This document shows positions 8,201-15,173 of a stretch of DNA of 64,000 bases, in pieces. The notes beneath the pieces are model-generated. The model did no database searches, was not told where the DNA came from, and saw nothing but the letters and a program-made list of their open reading frames with translations. Each line of letters begins with the position of its first letter. Position 1 is the stretch's first letter. Origin of the DNA: Parafannyhessea umbonata. GTDB lineage: Bacteria; Actinomycetota; Coriobacteriia; Coriobacteriales; Atopobiaceae. The translations under genes were made by a program, and so were the position numbers. The stretch is from assembly GCF_012844235.1 (NCBI RefSeq), contig NZ_JABAGR010000002.1, forward strand, positions 62,001 to 126,000, read 5' to 3'.

Positions 8201-9210
8201 AGAACCTGCATGACTTCTGCGAGCGCGTCGACTCCTCCCAGGCGAACCGTCGCGTGGTCGAGGCCCTCATCAAGGCGGGCGCGTTCGACGAGACGGGCTA
8301 CCCTCGCAAGCAGCTCATGGAGTTCGTGGACAAGAACAATCCCGCGAACATCATCGACGCGGCGGCGAAGCGCCAGAAGGACAAGGCGAACGGGCAGGTG
8401 TCCATGTTCGACATGTTCGCGGACGTCGCCGGCTCCGGCTTCACGGATGACGTGCCAGAGCCGGATCCCGACGACGAGTGGGACCGCCACCTCAAGCTGC
8501 AGCAGGAGCACGACGTCCTCGGACTCTACGTTTCGGACCACCCCCTGCGCCCGTTCGAGTACGCGCTGTCGAAGGCCCGTGACTGCACCATATCCGAGGC
8601 GATGGCCTCGGAGGACTACGTCGACCCGGTGACGGGCGCGACCTCCCAGCGCTTCAAGGTGGAGGACGGCAAGGTCATCAAGCTTGCCGGCATGGTCCCC
8701 GTCGGCGGCGTCGCAAAGAAGGTCACCAAGAAGGGCGACCAGATGGCCATCGTCACGCTCGAGGACATGGAGGGCGAGATCTCGCTCGTCGTCTTCCCGA
8801 AGACCTACCAGGAGTGCGCGTCCGCCCTCGAGGGTGAGGTCGACCCAGACACCGGTGAGCGCATCGGCGACGTCTTCATCCAGGCAACCGGCAAGATCGA
8901 GCACGGTGACAGGGGAGACCAGCTCATCTGCTCGAGGATCGAGGCGCTCGAGCTGAACGAGAGGACGAACAGGCCGAAGGTGTTCGAGGTCTACATCCCC
9001 TCCAGGATGCTCTCGATGGACAGGATGGAGACGCTCCAGTCAATCTTCGACCGCTACAACGGCCTCGACCACATCGAGCTCATGGTCGAGAGCTCGTGCG
9101 GCGACATGATGAGGATGGAGCTGCCGACGAAGGTGGACGCGAAGAACATGGTCCTCCTCGCGGAGGTGAAGGACTTCGTCGGCCGCGACGGCCACGTGCA
9201 GATTGCCTAG
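5299..9210 (+). CDS. dnaE: DNA polymerase III subunit alpha (DnaE)
   Basis: Replicative C-family polymerase, 1303 residues from the ATG at 5299, which has GGAGG at 5289-5293; an upstream in-frame extension lacks conserved sequence. The PHP domain begins at once (HLHNHSDFSILDG, residues 5-17; ITDHG, 38-42) and keeps the metal-ligand motifs HLHNHS, TDHG, GCEAY, SAC and DFHYL. This suggests a working PHP proofreading nuclease as in actinobacterial DnaE1. The palm motif PDIDMDFDDE gives catalytic Asp477 and Asp479, with Asp637 in LLKMDFLGL. Finger, HhH and OB-fold regions follow. About 67 extra residues interrupt the PHP domain between residues 47 and 126. The stop overlaps that of the convergent Abi gene by two bases. 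Confidence 0.95.
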   Translation: MAFVHLHNHSDFSILDGATPIPDMVKRAVDFGMPAVAITDHGYMFGIPELDLECRKYNDGQKNMKQWRHDVECFKKEWTLEEPAADPDDADYFDRVHDQWASDVRVWEESGHDVKAVEANRPRLKIKPIFGCEAYFIPGDHVERGHREKRYHLILLAKNSTGYHNLLKCMSEAAGHEMMYYGKPHTVFNMLERYHEGLICQSACVQGIIQQCVLDGQFDEARDWARKFHALFGDDFYMEIQDHGLTFRNGWDDRKLDEYLVKLAHEEGIKVVCTNDFHYLTREDASTQDILSCIGKATTLDDPNRMRMEGTEFYMKSEEEMRGLFSWCPEAADTTLEIADKCDYELDWSSMYLPEYPGLRPGETAEERFREECEKGLARRYGENWRDLTIGDWNVKDRFEHEYKIITEKGFANYFLIVQDYVQWAKDNGIGVGPGRGSAAGAIVAYAMNITNFDPLENGLMFERFLSPQRSEMPDIDMDFDDEHLQDVLQHVRDVYGEDHVCKVITYSTIKAKQAINDANRVLGFPVFMGQKLSKMLSNDPKLTLPNALHKNEKKPDQYSPDFEEAYNKDPDAHRIIDAALSIEGFMRGEGVHACATLIAPTPVTDHVPTKLDTKGNVTITQYEGHSVADMGLLKMDFLGLRTLTVINKALANIRRRYPKASDIERVPEAVRKCLKDGATCVDIDVDKIDFSDPKIYELLGSGQTAGVFQVESGGMTATIKNMQPNQYKQIVALIALYRPGPLGAGMVDSYIKRMHGEEKISYYDDRLKPILEETYGTMVYQEQVMQISMKMSGFTPGESDSRMRKPVAKKKIKMLTDQVFHWEKTGADETIYDHWMNGAEANGYSRDIAQEIWDNVLEFASYAFNKSHSAGYAILVMQTAWLKAYFPKEYMASVLTSYMGKTDKIVHYVTACNHDGTKVLPPDINKSGKDFTATDEGIVFGFAGIRGVGEGPAEAIMAERAANGPFKNLHDFCERVDSSQANRRVVEALIKAGAFDETGYPRKQLMEFVDKNNPANIIDAAAKRQKDKANGQVSMFDMFADVAGSGFTDDVPEPDPDDEWDRHLKLQQEHDVLGLYVSDHPLRPFEYALSKARDCTISEAMASEDYVDPVTGATSQRFKVEDGKVIKLAGMVPVGGVAKKVTKKGDQMAIVTLEDMEGEISLVVFPKTYQECASALEGEVDPDTGERIGDVFIQATGKIEHGDRGDQLICSRIEALELNERTNRPKVFEVYIPSRMLSMDRMETLQSIFDRYNGLDHIELMVESSCGDMMRMELPTKVDAKNMVLLAEVKDFVGRDGHVQIA

Positions 9211-10172
9211 ACGCCCGCGATCCCCGTCCGCTCGAGCTCGCGTGCGATGACGGGGCACGCCCGCGAGTACTCGGTCACCAGCGACTCGATGCCGCCCTGC
9301 AGGTGCGCGAGGTCGCCGGGCTCGAGGAAGTGGGACATCATGGAGACGAAGGCGGCAAAGTCCGCCTCGTCCTCCAGCCCGAAGCGTCCGTCGTATAGGC
9401 GCTCCCCGTGGGCGCAGACGTTGCGGACGTCGACGATGGCCTCGAGGTCGCGGGCGACGCGCCGTGGGGTGAGCGGTCTCTGGGACGGGGCCGCGCGCTT
9501 CTCGCCCGCACGCGCCGTGACGGTGTGGCCCGCGGAGCGGCAGGAGCTGAGCTCCGCGAGGTTGTCGCAGACCGCGATCTGCTCCTCGCGGCGCAGGAGC
9601 GCGAAGAGGTACTTGAGGTTCCCGAACGTGAGCTCGTCGACGAGGACCCACAGCGGCACGGTGTCGTGCTTGTCCTGGAAGTGGGCCACGCGCACGTCGC
9701 GGCGGTCGCCTCGCGGGTCGCGATCTCGCGTGCGGGCGTGGTGGGCGAGCGTGTCGATCATCCAGCGCAGGTCGCCCTCGAAGGCGTCCTCCCCGCGCAG
9801 GTAGTCGCGTCGACAGGTGTAGCTGGACTCGTCGAGGTACGCCTCCGGCCTGGGGTGGCGCTCGCAGAACGCGTAGCTTATGAGGGAGCGCAGCGTGGCC
9901 TCGACCAGCATGAGGTGGCGGAACGTGAGCGCGCGGAGGCCGCGGTCGAAGCGGAAGAGGGCATACACGTCCGAGAAGGACGTGCCCTTCAGGTAGCGGT
10001 CCTCCTTGGCGGCGCGGGTGGCACCTTGGTCTAGGAACGGCCGCTTGTAGCCGTTCACCACCGCGTAGTAGCCCTCGCGCAGGAGGATGCGCGGCGTCTG
10101 GGCGTCGCAGCGAAGGCCGCGGGCCGCGAGGAGCTCCACCTGCTCCGCTATGGTGAGGAAGCGCTTCTCCAC
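9207..10172 (-). CDS. Abi family abortive infection protein (AbiD/AbiF type, HEPN)
   Basis: This 321-residue protein resembles the Abi_2 (AbiD/F) family, phage-exclusion proteins of the HEPN ribonuclease superfamily. Visible signatures are an N-terminal KRFLTIAEQVELLAARGL block, REGYYAVVNGYKRPF, and near the C-terminus VRNVCAHGERLYDGRF. In the last block R-N-x3-H fits the HEPN catalytic R-x4-H motif. The GTG start at 10172 is chosen because GGAGG (complement of 10178-10182) is spaced five bases away and family homology starts there; longer frames upstream are not conserved. An extended -10 (TGGTACAGT, complement of 10221-10229) fits a transcript starting just upstream. It is a single gene, convergent with dnaE. 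Phage defence is inferred from the family. Confidence 0.75.
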   Translation of the reverse strand: MEKRFLTIAEQVELLAARGLRCDAQTPRILLREGYYAVVNGYKRPFLDQGATRAAKEDRYLKGTSFSDVYALFRFDRGLRALTFRHLMLVEATLRSLISYAFCERHPRPEAYLDESSYTCRRDYLRGEDAFEGDLRWMIDTLAHHARTRDRDPRGDRRDVRVAHFQDKHDTVPLWVLVDELTFGNLKYLFALLRREEQIAVCDNLAELSSCRSAGHTVTARAGEKRAAPSQRPLTPRRVARDLEAIVDVRNVCAHGERLYDGRFGLEDEADFAAFVSMMSHFLEPGDLAHLQGGIESLVTEYSRACPVIARELERTGIAGV

Positions 10173-10220
10173 GTTGGCCTCCGCGTTGGGTTGCGGGCCG
10201 CGCGGGGCGGCCACGAGCCG

Positions 10221-10229
10221 ACTGTACCA
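10221..10229 (-). promoter_or_regulatory. Putative extended -10 promoter of the Abi gene
   Basis: Read on the minus strand this is TGGTACAGT, an extended -10 (TG-N-TACAGT). It lies about 50 bases upstream of the GTG start at 10172, supporting that start over longer ones. No clear -35 was found. Confidence 0.35.
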
Positions 10230-10268
10230 CGACGGCGGTGCATTTGGGACTTTCGTCACGGAGACGGT

Positions 10269-10295
10269 TATTCTGCCACCGTATGGGGCAGAATA
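10269..10295. promoter_or_regulatory. 27-bp palindrome, probable operator upstream of superoxide reductase
   Basis: TATTCTGCC at 10269-10277 is mirrored exactly by GGCAGAATA at 10287-10295. The site lies 68 bases before the desulfoferrodoxin gene and 97 bases before the divergent Abi gene, so it could control either. It does not match PerR, Fur or Rex boxes as I know them. TATTCT itself could serve as a -10 for the rightward gene. Confidence 0.5.
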
Positions 10296-10363
10296 GATGA
10301 AAGGCCAGGCGCGGCACGCGGCCGGGCATGGCACACGTAGGGTTGATTCGCAAGGAGGAATGT

Positions 10364-10744
10364 ATGGCAGAGCTCACGTTCTATCGTTGCAACAAGTGCG
10401 GTAACCTGGTCATGGTGGTCGACAGGGGCGCCTGCGTGCCCACGTGCTGCGGCGAGCCCATGGAGAAGCTGGTTGCCGGCTCCGTCGACGCGGCGGCCGA
10501 GAAGCACGTGCCCTTCATCGAGCGCGACGACAAGCACATGATCGTGAAGGTCGGCGAGGTCGCGCACCCCATGACCGAGGAGCACTACATCGAGTGGATC
10601 GCCGTGGCGGCCGAGGGAAAGACCGTCATCAAGTACCTGAAGCCGGGCGAGGAGCCCACGAAGACCTTCTGCAAGAAGTTCGCGGACCACGGCACGGTCT
10701 ACGCGTACTGCAACCTGCACGGCCTGTGGAAGGCAGAGTTCTAG
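10364..10744 (+). CDS. dfx: Desulfoferrodoxin (two-iron superoxide reductase)
   Basis: This 126-residue cytoplasmic enzyme reduces superoxide to peroxide without making oxygen, a defence typical of anaerobes. Both iron sites are complete. The N-terminal desulforedoxin-type centre uses Cys9, Cys12, Cys28 and Cys29 (C-x2-C then CC). The catalytic centre uses His48, His68, His74, Cys116 and His119 (VAHPMTEEHYIEW and YCNLHGLW), with the conserved Glu46-Lys47 pair before His48. The spacing matches Desulfovibrio desulfoferrodoxin almost residue for residue. The ATG at 10364 has AAGGAGG at 10352-10358. The gene appears monocistronic, since a strong terminator follows, and a palindromic operator candidate precedes it. 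Confidence 0.95.
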   Translation: MAELTFYRCNKCGNLVMVVDRGACVPTCCGEPMEKLVAGSVDAAAEKHVPFIERDDKHMIVKVGEVAHPMTEEHYIEWIAVAAEGKTVIKYLKPGEEPTKTFCKKFADHGTVYAYCNLHGLWKAEF

Positions 10745-10788: not shown

Positions 10789-10843
10789 ATCCCTCCGTCG
10801 GGTAGCGTCCCCTCTGGCGGGCGTGCCCGCGGAGGGATTTTTT
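10789..10843 (+). terminator. Terminator region with two competing hairpins, overlapping the next gene's SD
   Basis: Hairpin A pairs CCCTC (10810-10814) and GCGGGC (10817-10822) with GCCCGC (10825-10830) and GAGGG (10832-10836), followed by TTTTTT at 10838-10843. Hairpin B pairs ATCCCTCCG (10789-10797) and CGGG (10799-10802) with CCCG and CGGAGGGAT (10826-10838). The two exclude each other and both consume the GGAGGG that acts as SD for the ATG at 10846. This is a terminator for the superoxide reductase gene and possibly a control element for the next gene. Confidence 0.7.
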
Positions 10844-10845
10844 AC

Positions 10846-12741
10846 ATGAGGATTGGCATCGCACAGATAGACACGCGCGCGGGCGACCTGGAGGCAACGG
10901 CCACGCGCATGGTCGCGCTTTCCGGCAGTGCCGCGGAGCAGGGGGCTGACCTTCTCGTCTTCCCCATGGCGGCGCTGACGGGACCCCTGCCCGTGCGCGA
11001 GAGCGAGCAGGACGACTTCCTTGTGGACGTGATGGACGCGCTCGTGCGCCTTTCTGAGGAGGTGTCGTGCCCCTGCATCGTACCCGTCGTCGGCGCGCTC
11101 GACGGCCAGCCGGCGCCGGAGGCGGTGCTGGTGGGGGACGAGAAGATCCTGCCCCTGAAGATGCAGGCCTATGCGCAGTCCGAGGACGCCGGCCAGGCGG
11201 ACGACGAGGACGCGCCGGCGCCTGACCTGCCCGAGTTCGAGTTTGGCGGCATGCGCCTGGGCGTCGCCTTCACCTATGAGGACCTGGACGACTACGACAA
11301 CTTCGACATCGACGTGGACGCCATCATCTACATCGCGGGCTACGGGTATGCCGCGGACGACGTGGACTCCGCGCTCGGCGGCGACCTCGCCGAGAACCGC
11401 TACGTCGCGGATGCGCGCACCACGGGCGCCTGGATCGTGGGCGTGGGGTCCGTCGGCGGCTACGGTACGTCCGTGTACTCCGGGTCGAGCTTCGCGCTCT
11501 CGCCGGAAGGCGAGCTCGTGGCGTCGCTTCCCGCCTGCGAGGAGGGGCTCGTCGTGGCAGAGGTGGGCGGCTCGCCCGCGGACGGTGACGAAGAGGTCCT
11601 GCCCGAGGTCTACAACCGTCCGCTCTACCTGTGGCAGACGCTCGTGCTTGGGCTGAGGGACTACCTCCACAAGCTTGACCAGAGTAGCGCCGTGCTCGCG
11701 CTGGACGGCAGCGTGGGCTCCATGGTGGTCGCCGCGCTCGCGACCGACGCGCTCGGACCCACGAATGTGCACGCGATCGTGGACGTGCCGGGCGACGTCA
11801 GCCGAGAGGCGTGCTGCCAGCGCCTTGCGCGAAACCTCAGGATCGACGTGCGGGACGTGGGCGACATGCGCGCGGCCGCGTTCGTCGCGAAGCCGGAGGA
11901 TGCGCTCCTCCGCCGCGGCATCGTGGACGCCTACCTTGCGGCATGGGCGGCGGAGGTCGGCGGCGTGGTCCTTTCCGGCGCGGACAAGACCGCCCTCGCG
12001 CTGGGCGAGAAGCGCCTGGCCCTGGGGGCCGACGCGCTGAAGCCCGTCGGGGACGTATACCGCTCGGACGTGCTCGAGCTCATGCGCATGAGGAACACGA
12101 TCAGCCCGGTGTTTCCGTCGACGAGGCTCGCGGCGGGCGAGGCGCCCGAGGTGGGGCTCGACCATCCGTCGCTTTCGGACGAGGCGTGGTGCGCCGAGGT
12201 AGACCAGGTGCTCTCCGACCACATCGAGTACGGCAGGAGCGTGACGGAGGTCGCCGCCGACCTGCGCGACGACAGGCTGGTCGAGGCGGTGCTCGCACGG
12301 CTGGACGAGAGCGAGCCGTGGCGCGTGGGACGCGGGCTGTACCTCATGGTGTCCACGGTCACGCTCTTCGACGCGCGGAGGCCGGTGGGGCTTGCGTGGC
12401 ACAACCGCATCCGCGCGGACCGCGACGCGGCCTCTACGCTCGACCGCGTCACGCGGCGCGTCGGCGCGGGCATCGGCCTCTCTGACCTGAGGGGCGGCCC
12501 CGCCTCAAGAAAGGACGCGCACAAGGAGCCCGATGACGGGGACGCCGGTGCGGCGGCGCCGTCGCGCGGTGACGCGAGGCAGGTGAAGGACGCGCTCTCG
12601 TTTTTGAGGGACTTCTCGTATGACGGCGGCTTCAGGCCGAAGGGCTTTGGCGACGCGCAGGACGGCGGTCAGGGCGGTCCCGCGAACGGGTTCGAGGACT
12701 CTCATGGGCGGACGTGGCCAAACCCATTTTCCGAGAACTAG
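10846..12741 (+). CDS. NAD synthetase-like protein (nitrilase plus NadE domains) with substituted active sites
   Basis: At 631 residues this has the size and layout of glutamine-dependent NAD+ synthetase: a nitrilase-fold amidase domain (about 1-270) and an NadE domain (about 280-550). Key residues appear lost. The amidase Glu motif (usually FPE-ALTG) reads FPMAALTG, and the Cys of the CED motif is replaced in FTYEDLDD. The lysine motif is also not recognisable. In the NadE domain the SGGxDS loop for ATP reads DGSVGS, and the GTGNKSE motif reads SGADKTALALG. About 60 Gly/Asp-rich residues follow. The frame is intact and codon use looks like neighbours, so it is not an obvious pseudogene. It could be a pseudoenzyme with a regulatory role or a strongly diverged enzyme. 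The ATG at 10846 has GGAGGG buried in a terminator hairpin. Confidence 0.75.
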   Translation: MRIGIAQIDTRAGDLEATATRMVALSGSAAEQGADLLVFPMAALTGPLPVRESEQDDFLVDVMDALVRLSEEVSCPCIVPVVGALDGQPAPEAVLVGDEKILPLKMQAYAQSEDAGQADDEDAPAPDLPEFEFGGMRLGVAFTYEDLDDYDNFDIDVDAIIYIAGYGYAADDVDSALGGDLAENRYVADARTTGAWIVGVGSVGGYGTSVYSGSSFALSPEGELVASLPACEEGLVVAEVGGSPADGDEEVLPEVYNRPLYLWQTLVLGLRDYLHKLDQSSAVLALDGSVGSMVVAALATDALGPTNVHAIVDVPGDVSREACCQRLARNLRIDVRDVGDMRAAAFVAKPEDALLRRGIVDAYLAAWAAEVGGVVLSGADKTALALGEKRLALGADALKPVGDVYRSDVLELMRMRNTISPVFPSTRLAAGEAPEVGLDHPSLSDEAWCAEVDQVLSDHIEYGRSVTEVAADLRDDRLVEAVLARLDESEPWRVGRGLYLMVSTVTLFDARRPVGLAWHNRIRADRDAASTLDRVTRRVGAGIGLSDLRGGPASRKDAHKEPDDGDAGAAAPSRGDARQVKDALSFLRDFSYDGGFRPKGFGDAQDGGQGGPANGFEDSHGRTWPNPFSEN

Positions 12742-12771: not shown

Positions 12772-12785
12772 AGAACGAACGTTCT
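12772..12785. promoter_or_regulatory. LexA-like SOS box upstream of ruvC
   Basis: AGAAC-GAAC-GTTCT fits the same AGAAC-RNRY-GTTCT form as the dnaE box. It lies directly after the putative -10 and 28 bases before the ruvC start. The ruv genes are classic SOS genes in many bacteria, which supports the call. Confidence 0.7.
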
Positions 12786-12813: not shown

Positions 12814-13467
12814 GTGATAATACTTGGCATAGACCCAGGCCTTGCGCATACGGGGTGGGGCGTGGTCGAGACGCGCGGCTCCCTCTGTCGTGCCCGCGCC
12901 TATGGTTGCGTCACGACGAAGGCTTCCGAGCCCATCGACCAGCGGCTCGGAAGGATCTTCGACGACCTCACGGAGGTCATCGTTCGCTACCATCCCTCGC
13001 AGCTCTCGATAGAGAGGATCTTCTTCGGAGAGAACACGCGCTCCGCCATCGCCACGGCCCATGCGCGCGGCGCCGCGATTGTCGCGTGCTCGAACGCCGG
13101 GCTTGCCGTGGGAGAGTTCACGCCCATGCAGATCAAGCAGGCCGTCGTGGGCACCGGCTCTGCGGACAAGCGGCAGGTCATCTACATGGTGCGCAACATA
13201 CTGGGCCTCGACCACGACCCGAAGCCGGACCATGCCGCGGACGCGCTCGCGGCGGCTATCTGCTACGCGAACCTCAAGCGCACGAGGAACATCGCGCGCG
13301 CCGTCGCGACGGACCAGCTGAGGGAGCAGGAGCGGGCCCAGCGCGAGGCCGACGCGGAGGCGGCACGTCAGATCACTGCGGCAGCGACTGCCGCGAACAT
13401 AGCACGCGCTCAGGGCAAGGGCGACCCGCTCTTCTCCACGCGGGCGAGCAGGAGGAGCAGCAGATGA
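12814..13467 (+). CDS. ruvC: Holliday junction resolvase RuvC
   Basis: RuvC is the RNase H-fold endonuclease that cuts Holliday junctions after RuvAB branch migration. The 217-residue protein opens with ILGIDPGLAHTGWGVVE, whose Asp is the first catalytic acid. IERIFFGENTRSA supplies the second (Glu), and the C-terminal DHDPKPDHAADALAAAICY supplies the last acids of the active site. The GTG at 12814 begins the conserved motif; the SD AAGG at 12803-12806 is modest. A charged C-terminal tail rich in Ala, Gln and Arg (about 165-217) extends beyond the usual ~165 residues. The stop overlaps the ruvA start as ATGA. Regulation is probably by LexA. Confidence 0.95.
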   Translation: MIILGIDPGLAHTGWGVVETRGSLCRARAYGCVTTKASEPIDQRLGRIFDDLTEVIVRYHPSQLSIERIFFGENTRSAIATAHARGAAIVACSNAGLAVGEFTPMQIKQAVVGTGSADKRQVIYMVRNILGLDHDPKPDHAADALAAAICYANLKRTRNIARAVATDQLREQERAQREADAEAARQITAAATAANIARAQGKGDPLFSTRASRRSSR

Positions 13468-14096
13468 TAGTAAGGCTAACGGGAACGCTCTTGGAGGTCC
13501 TGCCGACGCACGTCGTGCTGGACGTAAACGGCGTCGGATACGAGCTTGGCGTCTCGGCGAACACGGCGGCGTCGCTTCCTCCTGCGGGGGAGGCTGGCGT
13601 CACGCTTCTGACGAGGCTCATCGTGCGCGAGGACGCCATGGAGCTGTATGGCTTCTCGTCACGCGAGGAGCGGGCGCTCTTCGACCGGCTCGTCGCGATC
13701 TCGGGGGTCGGCCCGAAGCTCGCGCTGTCCGTGCTCTCGACGTTCAGGCCGCAGGAGCTCGCAACGGTCGTCGCCACGGAGGACGTCGGGCGCATGAGCC
13801 AGGTGTCAGGGGTCGGGAAGAAGAAGGCCCAGCGGCTGCTCGTGGAGCTCGAGGGCGTGTTCCAGAAGGACGCCGAGCTCAGGAGCCTCGTCGGCCTCTC
13901 GCAGCCATCGCACGGCGACGTCGTCGCGTCCGCCCCCGCGCTTCCGGTGCAGGCGGAGGCGACCGACGCGCTCCTCTCCATGGGCTTCACGTCGCAGGAG
14001 GTCGAGCTCGCGCTGCAGGGCCACGAGGAGGCGGGGGCGACGACCATACAGCAGGTGCTGTCGTACGCGCTCAAGCGGCTGGGAAGCGGGGCATAG
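13464..14096 (+). CDS. ruvA: Holliday junction DNA helicase subunit RuvA
   Basis: RuvA tetramers bind Holliday junctions and load the RuvB motor. The 210-residue product shows the N-terminal OB-fold (MIVRLTGTLLEV ... LDVNGVGYELGV, 1-65). Tandem helix-hairpin-helix motifs follow (LVAISGVGPKLALSVLS and VSGVGKKKAQRLLVEL, about 70-130). A C-terminal three-helix domain that contacts RuvB ends the protein (ALLSMGFTSQEVELAL, about 165-208). The ATG overlaps the ruvC stop, with GGAGGAG about ten bases upstream. Length and domain order match the family. Confidence 0.95.
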   Translation: MIVRLTGTLLEVLPTHVVLDVNGVGYELGVSANTAASLPPAGEAGVTLLTRLIVREDAMELYGFSSREERALFDRLVAISGVGPKLALSVLSTFRPQELATVVATEDVGRMSQVSGVGKKKAQRLLVELEGVFQKDAELRSLVGLSQPSHGDVVASAPALPVQAEATDALLSMGFTSQEVELALQGHEEAGATTIQQVLSYALKRLGSGA

Positions 14097-14099
14097 GCC

Positions 14100-15173
14100 A
14101 TGTGGGAAGCTGGTAGGGACGACCTGTTCGACGATGCGGGAACGGCGGGGATGCGGGGCATGCACGAGACGGGCCCCAGGTCCGTCACGGCGGAGCTCAC
14201 TGCGGACGATCTCGACGTAGACCGCACGCTGAGGCCAAAGTCGCTCGACGACTACTGCGGCCAGGAACGCGTGAGGGAGAACCTCCGGGTCTTGATCCAG
14301 GCCGCGAAGGAGAGGAACGAGCCCCTTGACCACGTCATCTTTTCGGGACCGCCGGGCCTAGGCAAGACGACGCTCGCGGGCGTGGTGGCGAACGAGATGG
14401 GGGCGAAGCTCCACACGACGTCGGGTCCCGCGATCGAGAGGACCGGCGACCTTGCCGCAATCCTCACGAACCTCGAGGAGGGAGACATCCTCTTCGTGGA
14501 CGAGATACACCGCCTTAACCACCAGGTGGAGGAGGTGCTCTATCCCGCGATGGAGGACTTCTTCCTGGACATCGTGATAGGCAAGGGGCCCGCCGCAAGG
14601 TCCATCAGGTTGGACGTGCCGCGCTTCACGCTCATCGGCGCGACCACGAGGACCGGTCTTCTCACCGGTCCGCTGCGCGACCGCTTTGGTATCAGCTACC
14701 GTCTCGACTACTACACGACGGAGGAGCTTGCGCGCATCGTCGTGAGGTCGGCGGGCATCCTCGGCGTGGACATAGATCAGCAGGGTGCGCTCGAGATCGC
14801 CTCGCGCTCTCGCGGCACGCCGCGCCTTGCGAACAGGCTCCTCAAGCGCGTTCGCGACTACGCGCAGGTGAAGGCCGAGGGAAGCATCACGTGGGACATC
14901 GCGGCCGAGGCGCTGAAGTTCTTCGAGATCGACGAGATGGGTCTCGACTGGATGGACGTGAAGATTCTTACGGCCCTCACGAAGACGTTCAGGGGCAGGC
15001 CCGTGGGGCTAACGACGGTCGCGAGCGCCGTGGGTGAGGATCCCGCGACGCTCGAGGACGTGTACGAGCCCTACCTGCTTCAGACCGGCCTCATCATCAG
15101 GACCCCACAAGGCAGGCAGGCCACACAGCTCGCGTTCGAGCACCTTGGGGTCGTTCCGCCTGCCACGAGGTAG
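14100..15173 (+). CDS. ruvB: Holliday junction DNA helicase subunit RuvB
   Basis: RuvB is the AAA+ ATPase that drives branch migration. The 357-residue protein has Walker [10 protein letters not shown], Walker [10 protein letters not shown], sensor 1 GATTR and the arginine-finger region [10 protein letters not shown] lid and a C-terminal winged-helix domain follow ([15 protein letters not shown] onward). The ATG lies three bases after ruvA, completing a coupled ruvC-ruvA-ruvB operon. An N-terminal extension of about 25 residues before the conserved [13 protein letters not shown] is slightly longer than usual and may be over-called; a later in-frame start is possible. Nothing suggests loss of activity. 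Confidence 0.95.

Follow-up and report, generated by a model that had tools for sequence, protein, structure and literature searches.

A family-wide NAD synthetase homologue with both catalytic centres lost, very probably a conserved pseudoenzyme of the Atopobiaceae and related Coriobacteriales

The window, i.e. the whole 64,000-nucleotide stretch of Parafannyhessea umbonata DNA that was analysed, carries between the genes for desulfoferrodoxin (dfx) and ruvC an open reading frame that starts with ATG, contains no internal stops and encodes a two-domain homologue of NAD synthetase (NadE). Two Pfam matches above their gathering scores were obtained for the product, CN_hydrolase at residues 2-240 and NAD_synthase at residues 263-485. 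This is the domain order of PRK13981-type NAD+ synthases, but the protein scores only 112 bits against the PRK13981 equivalog cut-off of 479, and 23 against the TIGR00552 cut-off of 63.65. We refer to the gene as pseudo-NadE, and the features at the locus are as follows:

9207-10334, minus strand: Abi_2 (abortive-infection-like) gene
10328-10744, plus strand: dfx, usual upstream neighbour (Pfam, synteny)
10789-10838, plus strand: strong hairpin directly 5' of the start codon (folding)
10846-12741, plus strand: pseudo-NadE gene, two-domain NAD synthetase homologue with both catalytic centres lost, 631 aa
10846-11580, plus strand: dead nitrilase-like amidase (glutaminase) domain, residues 1-245 (Pfam and motif alignment)
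11617-12435, plus strand: dead NAD synthetase domain, residues 258-530 (Pfam, alignment, model)
11704-11721, plus strand: P-loop remnant, SGGxDS changed to DGSVGS, within the dead synthetase domain
12436-12726, plus strand: linker, mostly disordered and fast-evolving (low pLDDT outside a helix; identity comparison)
12727-12738, plus strand: C-terminal tip F-S-x-N, FSEN in the window protein, residues 628-631 (homologue alignment)
12772-12785, no strand assigned: LexA/SOS-box-like palindrome AGAACGAACGTTCT, between the pseudo-NadE gene and ruvC
12814-15173, plus strand: ruvC, ruvA and ruvB, usual downstream neighbours (Pfam for ruvC; synteny)

At all 58 dead-copy loci with long flanks the gene adjoins dfx, ruvC or both, in constant order, and a Collinsella aerofaciens record reads desulfoferrodoxin, 'hypothetical protein', ruvC, ruvA, ruvB, the pseudo-NadE copy thus being annotated merely as a hypothetical protein. 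In the window genome, in its closest relative and at locus L038 the Abi_2 gene lies between dnaE and dfx; the other relatives inspected showed no such gene at this position. The 3' arm of the hairpin holds the likely Shine-Dalgarno sequence GGAGGG, and a hairpin of this shape recurs before the gene in six other species with a different stem sequence. Possibly it is the dfx terminator, or acts as an RNA switch that covers the start site. A search of Rfam gave a single match, under the gathering score and on the opposite strand. The palindrome AGAACGAACGTTCT is kept at the same place in most relatives, and its position suggests that ruvCAB has a promoter of its own, probably under SOS control.

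Alignment with the solved NadE 5kha showed that both catalytic centres are replaced. In the amidase domain FPE has become FPM (residue 41, Glu to Met), T/Y stand in place of the Cys of CED (residues 143-144) and the catalytic Lys is also lost, although the Lys region aligned less certainly than the rest. In the synthetase domain the ATP loop SGGIDS reads DGSVGS (residues 287-292), TGNKSE reads GADKTA (residues 378-383), and the motifs PPSAEL and NEYKRR are likewise degraded. None of the PRK13981 hallmarks, i.e. the amidase Glu-Lys-Cys triad, the SGGxDS loop and TGNKSE, is thus present in the window protein. These losses are shared by every one of about 85 homologues, so the substitutions are more than chance. 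The sequence-only reading that preceded this work had described the gene as full length and in frame, with the amidase Glu and Cys and the SGGxDS loop replaced; the open 631-residue frame and the 5kha alignment bear this out, and the degraded TGNKSE, PPSAEL and NEYKRR extend its list. It had also allowed that catalytic residues might be restored elsewhere in the protein. We searched for such migrated residues and can discard the idea: SGGxDS, TGNxSE, the amidase Glu motif and the Cys motif were absent from the entire sequence in 62 of 62 aligned homologues from the Atopobiaceae and the Collinsella family, and even the best cysteine column reaches at most 40 of the 62. As judged from its residues, pseudo-NadE would be unable to make NAD or to hydrolyse glutamine. 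Labelling this gene 'NAD synthase' would be an error, with consequences for metabolic models.

The same genome, 2.3 Mb in size and with the window on contig C12, encodes a second, complete NadE (G000:C21) of PRK02628 type. It scores 860 bits, where the cut-off is 473, and retains Glu, Lys, Cys, SGGxDS and GTGDLSE. Across the order Coriobacteriales this canonical enzyme was found in 157 of 294 genomes (E <= 1e-40), comprising nearly every genome of the Atopobiaceae and the Collinsella family and just three elsewhere. Of 19 copies whose motifs were read, every one retains SGGxDS and GTGDLSE, although some were not matched by the strict amidase-residue patterns.

An AlphaFold model of the window protein, built with 64 sequences, reached a mean pLDDT of 87.7 and a pTM of 0.86, and a homologue from the Collinsella family gave 82.2 and 0.78. 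The best solved structural matches of the model are NadE structures, with 3n05 first (TM 0.64/0.71), and the predicted models and PDB matches thus indicate that the NadE fold is kept. Nei-Gojobori dN/dS was 0.03-0.40 in the closest homologue pairs (68-98% identical), which shows maintenance by selection. Comparison of the two nearest genomes gave values of 0.095 (amidase part), 0.107 (synthetase part) and 0.245 (tail); canonical NadE in the same two genomes had 0.081, to which the amidase and synthetase parts are close. With motifs lost and restored nowhere else, a fold that is apparently kept and a sequence maintained by selection, pseudo-NadE is very probably a conserved pseudoenzyme. This much of the sequence-only reading, a pseudoenzyme with its fold kept, has been strengthened by the model confidence, the 3n05 match, the purifying selection and the separate canonical nadE, the latter a gene that it had left to be sought and that is present with all motifs intact.

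Homologues were matched in 216 of 297 sampled genomes of the order; many of the matches outside the Atopobiaceae (coded f1, the organism's own family) and the Collinsella family (f10, as we infer from the named C. aerofaciens record) are live enzymes. The codes f2 to f9 denote further families of Coriobacteriales. Within the Atopobiaceae the pseudo-NadE gene is present in 134 of 140 genomes, and in 100 of the 101 that are good (at least 90% complete, at most 5% contaminated). The sole good exception is the single-contig genome G035, in which dfx and ruvC were likewise not found and the best ruvB match was weak, and the whole dfx-ruvC block appears to be gone. G035 retains canonical NadE, and pseudo-NadE is dispensable there.

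In the rest of the order the protein was met in an intermediate state. Families f3 to f9 and one f2 genome have a two-domain homologue without the amidase Glu and Cys (and, to the extent that the alignment is reliable there, without the Lys) in which SGGxDS and NKSE are intact, while most f2 matches are single-domain enzymes. From its motifs this half-dead form is apparently an ammonia-dependent enzyme that carries a dead glutaminase domain. Half-dead loci, spread over several families, were recorded as L083, L097-L107, L109-L111, L115-L117 and L121. The G004 genome (f3) has no clear NadE besides its half-dead protein, which presumably works with free ammonia. Another f3 copy, in G013, is cut by a contig end and lacks SGGxDS in a genome with another strong NAD_synthase match; this may be a second case of synthetase loss. 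As to location, the live NadE of f5 (L150, L151, L152, L159, L160) is not beside dfx or ruvC; its neighbours, named by eye from sequence, are apparently a RelA-like protein, a metallo-hydrolase, an EamA-type transporter and an aldolase.

In a tree built by a quick method the dead proteins of the Atopobiaceae and the Collinsella family form one clade (SH-aLRT 99) nested among the half-dead relatives. Tree and motif distribution together indicate that pseudo-NadE descends from a two-domain NAD synthetase, that the catalytic residues disappeared first from the glutaminase half, which is the state in the rest of the order, and later, in the lineage to the Atopobiaceae and the Collinsella family, from the synthetase half, and that the dead protein was then kept under purifying selection. 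From the distribution, the second NadE would have arrived after the amidase loss and before the synthetase loss, and it is a plausible cause of this last step.

Disorder prevails in the region beyond residue 530, the fastest-evolving of the protein, with identity between the two closest genomes of 76% in the linker vs. 94% in the domains, and one conserved helix, LxFLRDF, at about residues 575-592. Conservation is nevertheless strictest at the very end of the protein. Tails were read in about 85 proteins, and FSxN ends 85 of 85 dead homologues; F628, S629 and N631 are invariant, and W624 is invariant in the Atopobiaceae where ungapped. The codons of the tip vary, with all four TCN and AGC for Ser, both codons for Phe, both for Asn and all three stops, which argues that selection acts on the protein sequence and rules out a conserved nucleotide signal. 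An extreme homologue in G218 of the Atopobiaceae (L154:6987-10241) has 1076 residues with long acidic stretches and no Pfam match, precedes ruvC and ends NNPFSIN. Outside the dead clade the half-dead G004 protein ends FSKN, and 8 of 8 f5 proteins have a C-terminal Asn, in most cases preceded at a short distance by a hydrophobic residue. The presence of FSxN on the live synthetase of G004 argues that the tip is older than the synthetase loss. G004 has the tip but no PRK02628 NadE, so that enzyme is probably not the partner of the tip. A scan of the window genome (with TCN serine codons) found no other real FSxN-ending protein; the rejects were one with an in-frame stop and three ending in TGG, which is not a stop. 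No docking of the tip on its own body was seen in either monomer model, where the tip has a pLDDT below 50; as a model result this is expected for an intermolecular motif, yet it proves nothing. Short linear binding motifs, such as the C-terminus of SSB, are typically built in this way, with a disordered tether and an invariant tip. The sequence-only reading had seen neither this tip nor the shared, two-step, family-wide loss.

Taken together, our results favour, with a probability of about 0.6, that pseudo-NadE has been retained because its FSxN tip serves in binding rather than in catalysis. The second NadE would have taken over NAD synthesis and thereby released the old enzyme, which would have been retained owing to a second, non-catalytic job that it already had. 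The two folded domains could then serve as a stable platform from which the flexible linker presents the tip to a partner, and the protein may act as a tether, an adaptor or a competitor. The more specific history, in which the live synthetase had already gained its FSxN-based job, the sites decayed after the takeover and the peptide role kept the protein, is a tentative proposal to which we give somewhat less than even odds. If true, Coriobacteriales have a hitherto unknown receptor that reads a C-terminal FSxN motif, and the four residues offer a precise handle for finding the partner. A family-wide pseudoenzyme also makes it testable why cells keep dead enzymes, in bacteria common in the gut and mouth (Collinsella, Olsenella and relatives).

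Alternatively, pseudo-NadE could be a ligand sensor in which a remodelled pocket binds NAD, ATP or glutamine and the tail is the output. The overall fold is kept, and K381, T382, D403, R416 and a P-loop remnant G-x-L-x-S are conserved; of these, the invariant K381 and D403 and the near-invariant T382 could form a remaining ligand site, although K381 and D403 are also present in live enzymes and may be structural. In live enzymes, however, phosphates, deamido-NAD and glutamine are contacted by residues that vary in the dead family. Ligand-contact positions 41, 107, 291, 379, 383, 435 and 492 are among the variable ones, with position 291 (the Asp of the ATP loop) in the 81st and position 383 (the Glu of NKSE) in the 66th percentile of variability. 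We therefore consider a sensor unlikely, and the sensor of NAD or glutamine proposed in the sequence-only reading lost ground with the ATP, glutamine and deamido-NAD contacts, a new pocket being still conceivable. Pseudoenzyme-enzyme pairs are a common pattern, and pseudo-NadE and canonical NadE co-occur in nearly all genomes of the two families, as would suit a regulatory subunit in a mixed complex. Such a role is nonetheless decidedly improbable, as the most conserved part, the tip, exists in G004, a genome without PRK02628 NadE, and as the two proteins belong to different subfamilies, for which mixed assembly is not expected.

A new activity in one of the two old sites, also put forward by the sequence-only reading, would agree with the strongly conserved fold and with several invariant polar residues (Q7, S215, K381, D403). 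The old catalytic positions have become ordinary variable ones, with A, M, S, L, Y or F at position 41 and T, S, D, G, N or a gap at position 143, and they hold no conserved potential nucleophile, cysteine included, which makes new chemistry at the same sites very unlikely. Adjacency to ruvC is constant in the Atopobiaceae and the Collinsella family, and G035 lacks ruvC as well as pseudo-NadE, which could hint at a role in DNA repair together with RuvCAB. An operon partnership is weakened by the intervening SOS box, which suggests separate transcription, and by the location away from ruvC of the half-dead relatives, including one that shares the tip; G035 seems to have lost an entire block, and we regard this role as highly improbable. 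That the gene is a decaying pseudogene, as the loss of every catalytic residue might suggest, is refuted by frames intact in nearly all genomes, the dN/dS values and the invariant C-terminus. Thus, of the earlier interpretation the pseudoenzyme with its kept fold stood, and the sensor and the new activity fell back.

Pseudoenzymes in general have been recognised by the loss of catalytic motifs in sequence analysis and are presumed to have regulatory or scaffold roles, as we suppose for pseudo-NadE (PMC10211241). In the literature searched we found no description of a pseudoenzyme of the NAD synthetase or nitrilase family, and a standard account of NAD synthetase evolution covers, in the sections consulted, one- and two-domain forms with no mention of dead ones (PMC3376133). 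Compared with known systems, the Mycobacterium tuberculosis-type PRK02628 NadE has the same two domain families but belongs to another subfamily and locus, with complete motifs, about 640 aa and no FSxN tail. The PRK13981-type enzymes of Acinetobacter (5kha), Burkholderia (4f4h) and Streptomyces (3n05) share domain order, body length and fold with pseudo-NadE, which unlike them has lost the catalytic and many ligand-contact residues, has an added linker and FSxN tip and scores far below the cut-off of the type. The half-dead NadE, e.g. that of G004 at L083, shares the dead amidase, the tip and dfx as a neighbour, but differs in its intact synthetase motifs and in being the only clear NadE of its genome. 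Full enzyme, half-dead enzyme and fully dead protein, the evolutionary steps are thus still visible in living relatives.
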